A stretch of DNA of 9,306 nt from Tannerella sp. (GTDB taxonomy: Bacteria; Bacteroidota; Bacteroidia; Bacteroidales; Tannerellaceae). Below, piece after piece: positions 4,742 to 9,229 of this stretch (position 1 is its first letter; each line of letters begins with the position of its first letter). The stretch covers positions 1 to 9,306 of the forward strand of contig JAITQL010000007.1 of NCBI GenBank assembly GCA_031288935.1, written 5' to 3'. The notes under the pieces are model-generated. The model had not been told where the DNA came from. It worked only from the letters and a program-made list of their open reading frames with translations, and made no database searches. A program made the translations under genes and the position numbers.

Positions 4742-4833
4742 GTTTCACGCGGATTTCAAACGCGGATTCCGCAGATTCAAGGTCATTGAAATCTGCGGAA
4801 TCCGCGTTTAAATCCCTTTCATCCGCGTGAAAC
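4742..4833. repeat. Large nested palindromic element, copy 1 (between galK and GH92 gene)
   Basis: The outer arms GTTTCACGCGGAT (4742-4754) and ATCCGCGTGAAAC (4821-4833) are perfect inverse complements. Inside them a perfect 20-bp inverted repeat pairs 4758-4777 with 4790-4809, built on CGCGGATTCCGC. A TTCAA/TTGAA extension closes the inner helix, with a single bulged base. The transcript of either strand would fold into one long hairpin. The element lies between two convergent genes, so it could act as a bidirectional 3' end or processing barrier. A second element of the same family lies at 7228-7306. It is non-coding. I do not know a name for this family; similar CGCGGATT palindromes are, from memory, scattered in Bacteroidales genomes. 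Confidence 0.85.
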
Positions 4834-7227: not shown

Positions 7228-7306
7228 CTTTCACGCGGATTTGCGCGGATTTCAAACGCGGATTCCGCGGATTTCAACGACCTTTCATCTGCGCCATCCG
7301 CGTGAA
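7228..7306. repeat. Large palindromic element, copy 2 (upstream of GH92 gene)
   Basis: The outer arms TTCACGCGGAT (7230-7240) and ATCCGCGTGAA (7296-7306) are perfect inverse complements. The interior shares the AAACGCGGATTCCGC core with copy 1, here with GCGGATTTC in place of copy 1's GCAGATTC and an extra TTGCGCGGA. The inner helix is more degraded than in copy 1. Both copies are in the same orientation and both are followed by a TTGAATTTT-type tail (7311-7320 here). The two elements lie just outside the mannosidase gene at either end. Confidence 0.82.
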
Positions 7307-7379
7307 CTCCTTGAATTTTCAACTCTTTTTCGTTATGGAAATGAAATGTCGTCCGGCCATTGCCGTATGTTGCGCGGAC

Positions 7380-7689
7380 AGTTCGAAACTTTTCAAAGTG
7401 TTCCCGCACGCTGCGGCGACCGAAAAACACTTTTCAAAGTGTTCCCGCACGCTGCGGCGACATTTCGAAACTTTTCAAAGTGTTCCTGCACGCTGCGGCG
7501 GCATTTCGAAACTTTTCAAAACGTTCCTGCACGCTGCGGCGACCGAAATACATTTTTCAGAGTCTTCCTGCACGCTGCAGCGGCTGTTCGAAACTTTTCA
7601 AAGTGTTCCTGCACGCTGCGGCGGCATTTCGAAACTTTTCGAACTGCTCCCGCACGCTGCGGCGGCTGTCTGAAAAGTGTTTTTCCCGT
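7380..7689. repeat. 41-bp tandem repeat array, about 7.5 units
   Basis: Units begin at 7380, 7421, 7462, 7503, 7544, 7585, 7626 and 7667 (partial), always exactly 41 bp apart with no indel. The conserved part is ACTTTTCAAAGTGTTCC, then (C/T)GCACGCTGCGGCG. The first nine or so bases vary between a TTCGAAA type and a CGAAAAACA or CGAAATACA type. The order of types is a-b-a-a-b-a-a, so a 123-bp higher-order period may exist: units 3 and 6 differ at only two positions. Unit 2 holds an 18-bp near-palindrome (AACACTTT-TC-AAAGTGTT, 7426-7443). Because 41 is not a multiple of 3, the same peptide words appear in all three frames, so the open frames here are not evidence of a gene. There are no unique spacers, so it is not CRISPR. 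Confidence 0.92.
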
Positions 7690-7930: not shown

Positions 7931-7958
7931 CTGTTCGGGTATAATCAATGTCATTACC

Positions 7959-8974
7959 ATGATCGCCCAGGTGAATCATCCGGTAAACGCTCCGCCGGGA
8001 TACCGTACCGAAGACATCATTGACGTAAACATGATACCCTTAAAGAACAGAGACCCGTGCTTTCTGTTTGCCGAAGAACGAAGCCGGCTTCCGGAGGTGA
8101 AGCGGACGGCGTTCAGCATGGGAACGCCTTTCAGCATGGGAAACAATCATACAATGCATCACGAAGGAAAAAACATCAGTTTCCAGTCGTTCGTGTGCGA
8201 CAGCGTCACGTTCGACATGCTCGGATTTCAGAAACTGAGGGAGAACAGCGCTTCGGGCGAGGCGTATTACCTGAACGGACAGGTGCTGCGCGAACTGGAG
8301 CTGGCGGAAGACGCGACGACCTTCCCGTTTTACGGTCAGCAGAAACCCTGATAGCCGGCGTCATAAAGGATTTTCAGCTGGGGAACATTACCCGAATGGC
8401 AAATCCGGTGATGGTGAAAGTCACTGCGCGGGAAAATCTCTATCTGCTGAATTTGCCGGTAGAAGTACAAGGCCCTCCTGCCCGGGCGTATCGGGCGGTG
8501 AAGGAGACCTTCGAGCGCGTCACGCAAAGCGATTTTAACGGTCAGTTCATCGACCGTCAGGTGGCCGAATCCTTTGCCGGACAGCAGCGGACATCGACAA
8601 TCATGACCCTCTTCACGGCCATGGCGATCCTGATTTCGCTGCCGGGACTCTTTGCCATGTCCACGTACTTCATCCGTCAGCGCGCGAAGGAGATTGCCGT
8701 GCGCAAGGTCTTCGGCTCGACCGGCCCGGAGGTGTTCGGGCGGTTGATACGGACGTTCCTGAGCTACGCGGTAATCGCGTTCGTGATCGCCACGCCCGCC
8801 GTCCGGTACGTGATGAACCGGTGGCTGTCGAGCTATTCCTGCCGGATTTCGCTCAGTCCGCGGATATTCATCGCAGCCGGTTTGTTCTGCCTGCTGATTT
8901 CCCTTGTCACCGTATTCTTCCAGAGCTACGTGGCCGCCAACGCCAATCCGGTGAAAAACATCAAGTCTGAATAA
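7959..8974 (+). pseudogene. ABC transporter permease (MacB/FtsX type), C-terminal half with frameshift
   Basis: Two overlapping frames encode consecutive parts of one protein. Frame one (ATG 7959 to TGA 8351) gives the periplasmic MacB_PCD-like part: NAPPGYRTEDIIDVNM, AFSMGTPFSMGNNHTMH, FDMLGFQKLRENSASGEAYYLN, ending FPFYGQQKP. Frame two continues LIAGVIKDFQLGNITR and then the FtsX domain. That domain has three helices (near MTLFTAMAILISLPGLFAMS, FLSYAVIAFVIATPAV and FIAAGLFCLLISLVTVFFQS), the coupling motif RAKEIAVRKVFGST, and the usual Bacteroidales end ANPVKNIKSE at 8974. The frames meet at 8346-8350 (AAACCCTGATA). One missing base, as in AAA-CCN-CTG-ATA, would restore K-P-L-I-A-G-V. Such permeases are about 780 residues with two FtsX halves; the N-terminal half is absent here. 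Homology is clear from about 7965; ATG 7959 is only a possible start. The partner ATPase is not present. Confidence 0.85.
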
Positions 8975-8989
8975 TTCAAAGATTCAAAG
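8974..8989 (+). repeat. GATTCAAAG direct repeat, left of FGE fragment
   Basis: ATTCAAAGATTCAAAG directly follows the permease stop and abuts the first recognisable codon (TAT, 8990) of the FGE-like fragment. It shares AGATTCAAAGATTC-type sequence with the run after the fragment at 9211-9245. Confidence 0.65.
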
Positions 8990-9229
8990 TATGACATGAG
9001 CGGCAATGTATGGGAATGGTGCAGCGACCGGTATGGCGTTTACGGCAGCAGTTTGCAGACCAATTCTGCCGGGCCTTCGTCAGATTCTAACCGCGTGTTT
9101 CGTGGCGGTAGCTGGAGCGGCGACGCGCAGTGCGTGCGTGTTCCGTATCGCGCCGACGACACGCCCGACAATCGCTACAGCAACCCGGGCTTCCGACTGG
9201 CCTCCGGTTCAGATTCAAAGATTCGATGA
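8990..9229 (+). pseudogene. Isolated C-terminal piece of an FGE/SUMF1-like (C-type lectin fold) protein; possible DGR variable region
   Basis: The frame reads YDMSGNVWEWCSDRYG, then RVFRGGSW (9092-9115), then a loop region and GFRLA (9188-9202), ending at TGA 9229. This is the C-terminal part of the formylglycine-generating enzyme/SUMF1 family, normally 250 residues or more. Everything upstream of YDMSGNVWEW is missing and is replaced by a GATTCAAAG repeat, so it is a fragment; the internal ATG at 8996 could allow a 77-residue peptide. It is in the same frame as the permease, separated by one TAA and five codons. Codons after GGSW are AGC GGC GAC, TGC, TAT, GCC GAC GAC, TAC AGC AAC. Each can be derived from AAC or AAT by changes at the two adenines only, the pattern expected of a diversity-generating retroelement variable region. 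Catalytic function is not expected; these folds serve as ligand-binding domains in DGR targets. Confidence 0.78.

Follow-up and report, generated by a model that had tools for sequence, protein, structure and literature searches.

The window, by which we mean the whole 9,306-nucleotide stretch analysed here (G000:C12:1-9306, apparently an entire contig), raises the question of how the 3' end of an FGE-type gene, with codons that look mutated at adenines, came to stand inside an intergenic repeat array, and whether a diversity-generating retroelement (DGR) made those codons. The window genome (G000) is a draft of 1.85 Mb in 264 contigs and is 55.66% complete.

An FGE-type gene end inside a repeat array

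The last part of the window holds the following features:

7952..8974, + strand: decayed FtsX-type permease gene in two reading frames, its 5' half absent; the array and the piece lie behind it
8974..8989, no strand: two ATTCAAAG units of a dispersed intergenic array, the first base being the last base of the permease stop codon
8990..9212, + strand: apparently captured 3' piece of a DGR-target-type FGE gene, recognised by homology to the C129 copy and two G037 copies, with array units abutting both sides
8996..9229, + strand: open frame of 77 amino acids, C-terminal part of PF03781 only
9089..9205, + strand: very probable DGR-type variable region, from comparison of copies and the columns of the L075 template
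9089, 9098, 9110, 9116, 9119, 9122, 9131, 9146, 9152, 9155, 9158, 9161, 9170, 9176, 9179 and 9182, + strand: starts of the codons that vary among copies and face Asn codons of L075
9213..9244, no strand: four further array units (ATTCAAAG ATTCGATG ATTCAAAA ATTCAAAG)

The piece is 223 bp long, and its homology to the C129 copy and the two G037 copies begins at TATGACATGAGC and stops near GGTTCA. Because TTCA is common to gene and array, the 3' border is uncertain by a few bases (9208-9212). The fragment is of FGE type, as the initial annotation had it; the open frame matches FGE-sulfatase (PF03781) at profile positions 179-254 of 255 (181-254 in a second search). Only this part of the profile is present at the window, with no gene body upstream, and we class the piece as a relic of a DGR target, not a working target.

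The array unit has 8 bases, and (ATTCAAAG)n arrays are intergenic and dispersed through the genome. At least 64 of the 67 within-genome matches fall on the repeat parts of the query (a lower bound, with 40 of the 170 first candidates scored), which marks the array as a dispersed family. Elsewhere, for example at L016, L019, L024 and L026, such arrays were seen by eye often to stand directly after a stop codon and to face an inverted copy some 100-200 bases on; the array is possibly a terminator-like repeat. Other repeats in the window are a tandem repeat (7360-7675; period 41 bases) that precedes the decayed permease gene and an intergenic palindrome of the CGCGGATT type between two genes (4742-4833; arms of 23 and 13 bases), with a stretch resembling it at 7241-7277.

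Pfam FtsX matches at 8057-8971, and the matches of the genus to the permease start at 7952 or later; an intact relative in G017 has an open frame of 790 amino acids. There are 19 matches to the permease outside G000, and the ten of these loci that were read have 66-73% identity. The fetched DNA of these ten congener loci holds no FGE match. One of them, in G015, has a similar array at the same permease stop codon, without the piece, and its contig stops about 300 bases beyond the array. Since an array was found behind the permease in only one of the ten loci, the array itself may be young at the window.

Copies of the gene end and the pattern of their variation

Four copies of the FGE-type 3' end were compared: the window, a copy in the same genome (C129:10920-11151, the other long match there) and two on one contig of a congener (G037:C216). 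The window is closer to the G037 copies (85% and 83% identity, the best outside G000) than to the copy in its own genome (79-80%). Some match to the window at E <= 0.001 was found in 18 of the 41 genomes of the genus; one match, in G024:C95, was set aside as, by eye, an unrelated coding frame. One G037 copy (G037a) ends a complete protein of 578 amino acids that joins a protein kinase to an FGE domain, and G025 holds a relative of this kinase-FGE protein that is 67% identical over nearly its whole length. G024 and G025 also carry a second, related pair of variable regions.

The initial annotation had read eleven loop codons as derivable from AAC or AAT by change at positions 1 and 2, and these codons are as it gave them: AGC GGC GAC (9116-9124), TGC (9131), TAT (9146), GCC GAC GAC (9152-9160) and TAC AGC AAC (9176-9184). 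Such a signature is weak evidence in one sequence alone; its strength comes from comparison among copies. Over the 38 ungapped loop codons of the four copies, 15, 15 and 3 columns vary at codon positions 1, 2 and 3, which is not the ordinary third-position drift that would have spoken against a DGR, and the 32 aligned codons upstream in the same copies have 5, 8 and 15 (gapped columns were skipped). As controls, the loops of two ordinary tandem FGE sets of the genus (G024, G009, G017) gave 10, 10 and 16 and 20, 7 and 31. Fisher tests of the loop against the upstream part (p = 2e-4) and the two controls (p = 1e-3 and 2e-5) are guides only, since columns are not independent and copies share ancestry. 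In the G024/G025 pair the loop gave 16, 6 and 3; the upstream part changes too little (1, 4 and 1) for that pair to offer a contrast.

Three or four different bases among the four copies are found at 13 of the 33 variable loop columns and at 2 of the 26 upstream (both totals use an alignment slightly different from that of the codon-position count). Adenine is present in some copy at 25 of the 33 loop columns and absent from all copies at 8; these 8 columns fit a hypermutated adenine, without proving hypermutation.

Templates were available from three DGRs with FGE targets: G113 (same family), L075 (titled Muribaculaceae) and L089 (titled Bacteroidia). The G113 DGR has an HRDC-domain gene, a 334-aa reverse transcriptase (RT) with IGNLTSQ and YMDD, a template behind the RT and a target 1.7 kb before the template; the IGNLTSQ motif is shared by all three. 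Between template and variable region, the mismatches lie at template adenines in 16/16 cases for G113, 24/24 for L075 and 19/20 for L089; in the overwhelming majority of published alignments of this kind, 75% or more of the mismatches face adenine, according to excerpts of PMC8144416. Template layout is the same in the three DGRs (38 codons in L075 and L089). They resemble the window in their FGE targets, the same varying columns, an AAC-rich template and mismatches at template adenines; they differ in keeping RT and template near the target, whereas the window has neither. A scan of the loci for AAC-rich stretches gave, among its best 60 matches, only L075, L089 and L099 as variable-region-like by eye, L074 and L104 being other parts of FGE-like frames.

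Each of the 16 columns that hold an Asn codon in the L075 template varies among the four copies, and 2 of the 22 other columns do (p = 7e-9); with the L089 template, 13 of 13 Asn columns vary and 5 of 25 others (p = 1.6e-6). Third positions are constant in 15/16 Asn columns in the L075 register and 12/13 in the L089 register, and positions 1 and 2 change freely. Between the window and each other copy, 15/16, 12/13 and 13/15 changed residues lie in L075 Asn columns, and 18/21, 16/19 and 21/24 base differences face a template adenine, adenine being 36 of the 114 template bases. (One extra variable-region codon of C129 was removed to align it for these template comparisons and for the count of different bases per column, and one body codon also for that count.) Variation at template adenines was thus found by comparing copies with the templates of relatives rather than with a template of their own.

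Six varying sites derivable from a template adenine had been missed before: AAC 9089, TTT 9098, AGC 9110, CAG 9128, ACG 9161 and AAT 9170. Two CCG codons noted as misfits have different histories, the one at 9143 recurring in one G037 copy (CCC in the other two copies) and the one at 9185 being found in the window only (CTG in the other three). CGA at 9194, which had been taken as fixed, is also window-only, with CGC in the other three copies. By sequence, the PF03781 match and the kinship of the G037 homologue to TvpA indicate the fold of C-type-lectin/FGE targets with a C-terminal variable region; among solved proteins, TvpA (2Y3C) is nearest to the G037 FGE domain (E 1.4e-39), and the best true FGE scores E 1.2e-25. 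The comparison of copies and template supports the earlier proposal that a DGR-type variable region was separated here from its target body, and positions 9089-9205 are, judged by these patterns, very probably a variable region of the DGR type.

Searches for a template and a reverse transcriptase

The initial annotation had pointed to a template repeat and a GxxxSQ-type RT in the genome as the check on its reading, with their absence as a refutation, and neither was found in G000, where the inferred template matched only the two variable regions, the window DNA brought up no template and RVT_1 had no match. This assembly is only 55.7% complete; hence, a missing template or RT does not refute a DGR origin. 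Among 123 genomes of the family, the inferred template gave 7 matches in 5 genomes. Together with the window DNA it retrieved the four copies, the two weaker variable regions of G024 and G025 and the real template of G113, and no template in G037, G024 or G025. An exact 20-base template motif had no match in viral_contigs, and the 37 matches in plasmid records were all under 60% identity.

The G113 RT, used as a query, matched 42 of the 123 family genomes at E <= 1e-8, with none in G000, G037, G024 or G025; within the genus, the only strong match is in G035 (E 8.9e-51). RVT_1 is found in 16 of the 41 genus genomes (46 matches, 16 of them with no locus). Among the 30 loci fetched and scanned for RT motifs, 19 have a motif-4 box near the catalytic box, 18 of the QGxxxSP type and one, in G035, reading IGNYLSQ. 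The latter RT (L188, G035:C34) lies in a phage-like region, where two related small ORFs alongside could be targets and no FGE-like ORF was seen by eye. Three contigs of G037 were also considered: the ORFs of C230 read, to us, as pieces of group II intron type rather than DGR remains, the C128 match has no frame of 80 amino acids or more, and the C90 match (E 1.6e-4) falls below the family cut-off.

The intact kinase-FGE gene of G037 has an RT neighbour of another class. Its start lies within the stop of a DRT candidate, a 1086-aa gene with an RT_UG24 match (1130.7 bits) and an HD-CE domain. Upstream on the same strand lie a 186-aa gene that matches RTas1299 weakly (E 0.0011) and a second FGE frame with a variable region, cut by the contig end, so that the RT_UG24 gene stands between two such frames (L143, G037:C216, 5872-12118, minus strand). 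This RT is not favoured as the mutator because its motif is QGLPQS, not GxxxSQ. UG24 occurs in one of 393 sampled genomes of the order (G232), and no FGE-like ORF was seen by eye in 14 kb of that locus. We consider it unlikely that the intact kin are hypermutable sensor kinases in an RT defence operon, as the arrangement in G037 may hint, and the window the wreck of such a sensor; if true, sensors under constant rewriting by a separate DGR would steer UG-class defence RTs.

Protein searches of metagenomes gave 251 and 7998 matches (120 listed for each). Of eight proteins read, P0002, P0003, P0005, P0021 and P0035 look by eye like further variants at the same columns, at the protein level only. 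Other metagenome FGE relatives (P0199, P0212, P0229 and P0237) are joined to a kinase, caspase-like (PF00656) or TIR (PF13676) domain, an arrangement seen in conflict systems.

Origin of the piece and its meaning

Our reading is that positions 8990-9212 are the 3' end of an FGE gene in an 8-base array, that a DGR of the TvpA/HRDC type probably made its variable codons, and that the piece was probably severed from its gene afterwards and is now a relic. Error-prone copying of an AAC-rich template RNA would have rewritten the variable region of an intact kinase-FGE gene, and illegitimate or repeat-borne recombination would later have placed a piece of such a gene in the array. The piece would now be non-functional, since only about a third of the FGE domain is left. 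Among the 41 genomes of the genus, FGE matches restricted to profile positions from 171 on number four; three are cut by contig ends, and the window piece is the only one that is not. Hence, it has the look of a single fragment caught up in an intergenic region under decay and not of a cassette that recurs. Counts of substitutions give this no further support: the window-only codon changes (3 nonsynonymous and 1 synonymous) equal those of intact G037a (3 and 1), and relic drift is therefore not supported by rates.

Of the two earlier options, a recombination relic and a donor cassette, the relic is favoured, and the cassette is left without support because the piece is the sole uncut C-terminal-only match and its copies are closer in a congener than in its own genome. 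A broader version, in which a DGR elsewhere in the cell still rewrites the fragment in trans, or the fragment serves as a silent donor recombining into full genes, gains from a variable region that is nearly whole and a frame that is open. As excerpted, PMC10907252 proposes that remote targets are acted on in trans, and PMC4891356 considers this possible. We hold it very improbable all the same: only FGE profile 179-254 is left, two window-only changes (CCG 9185 and CGA 9194) interrupt an otherwise constant 3' end, the G037 copies resemble the window at least as closely as C129 does, and no other internal piece confined to the C-terminus exists in the genus. It is only slightly less improbable that a false join in the draft put the end of a kinase-FGE gene next to the array. 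The 264 contigs, an array repeated through the genome, the end of the piece about 100 bases before the contig end and the breaking of genus FGE copies at contig ends would all suit a misjoin, but array units stand on both sides of the piece, and the 5' junction shares no sequence with the other copies upstream of TATGACATG that could have caused one. Contigs G024:C42 and G033:C150 have the same starting point, exactly 126 bases ahead of the first Asn-derived codon, and G037:C216 stops 119 bases short of that codon. Such breaks near the variable region resemble those of k-mer assembly at a branch and may hint that the region varies in living members of the family.

Ordinary FGE paralogues under diversifying loop selection, with no retroelement, would account for a genome in which template and DGR RT were not found, and FGE loops vary anyway. 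Against this stand the third positions held constant in nearly every Asn column, the ordinary FGE sets of the genus, which change third positions most in the loop, and the complete DGRs of the same layout in the family; we give this explanation the least credence of all. The DGR relic remains our preferred reading.

Two described systems come closest to it, both cited from excerpts of their papers. Treponema denticola has a DGR with FGE-type TvpA targets, a C-terminal variable region, an HRDC accessory gene and remote targets (PMC4891356; structure 2Y3C); the complete DGR of G113 is like it in its HRDC accessory gene. Truncated targets of 58-136 amino acids are described there, and 8 of 17 isolates have targets with neither template nor RT (Table 1, PMC4891356). 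The T. denticola targets mostly have predicted lipoprotein signals (PMC4891356), whereas in G037 the intact gene fuses a protein kinase to FGE; the excerpts of PMC4891356 do not mention any piece that lies within a repeat array. In Thiohalocapsa PB-PSB1, incomplete DGRs occur with remote targets, some best explained by trans activity, and some targets, with FGE or kinase domains, are interpreted as putative antigen sensors in conflict systems (PMC10907252). Those are full genes with measured variation (PMC10907252), whereas the window holds a fragment known from assembly sequence alone. A narrow literature search (titles and abstract starts) named no variable-region fragment inside such an array. 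A relic of a DGR target is a kind already described in Treponema, and the locus is new.

For the method, an orphan DGR variable region could be recognised from sequence alone, and comparison then confirmed it in a genome that yielded no template or RT. For the biology of the group, the locus adds a genus with DGR-type variable regions on kinase-FGE proteins, the DGR RT being missing from nearly all of its drafts. This scarcity of RTs would mean that the machinery either drops out of assemblies or acts from elsewhere.
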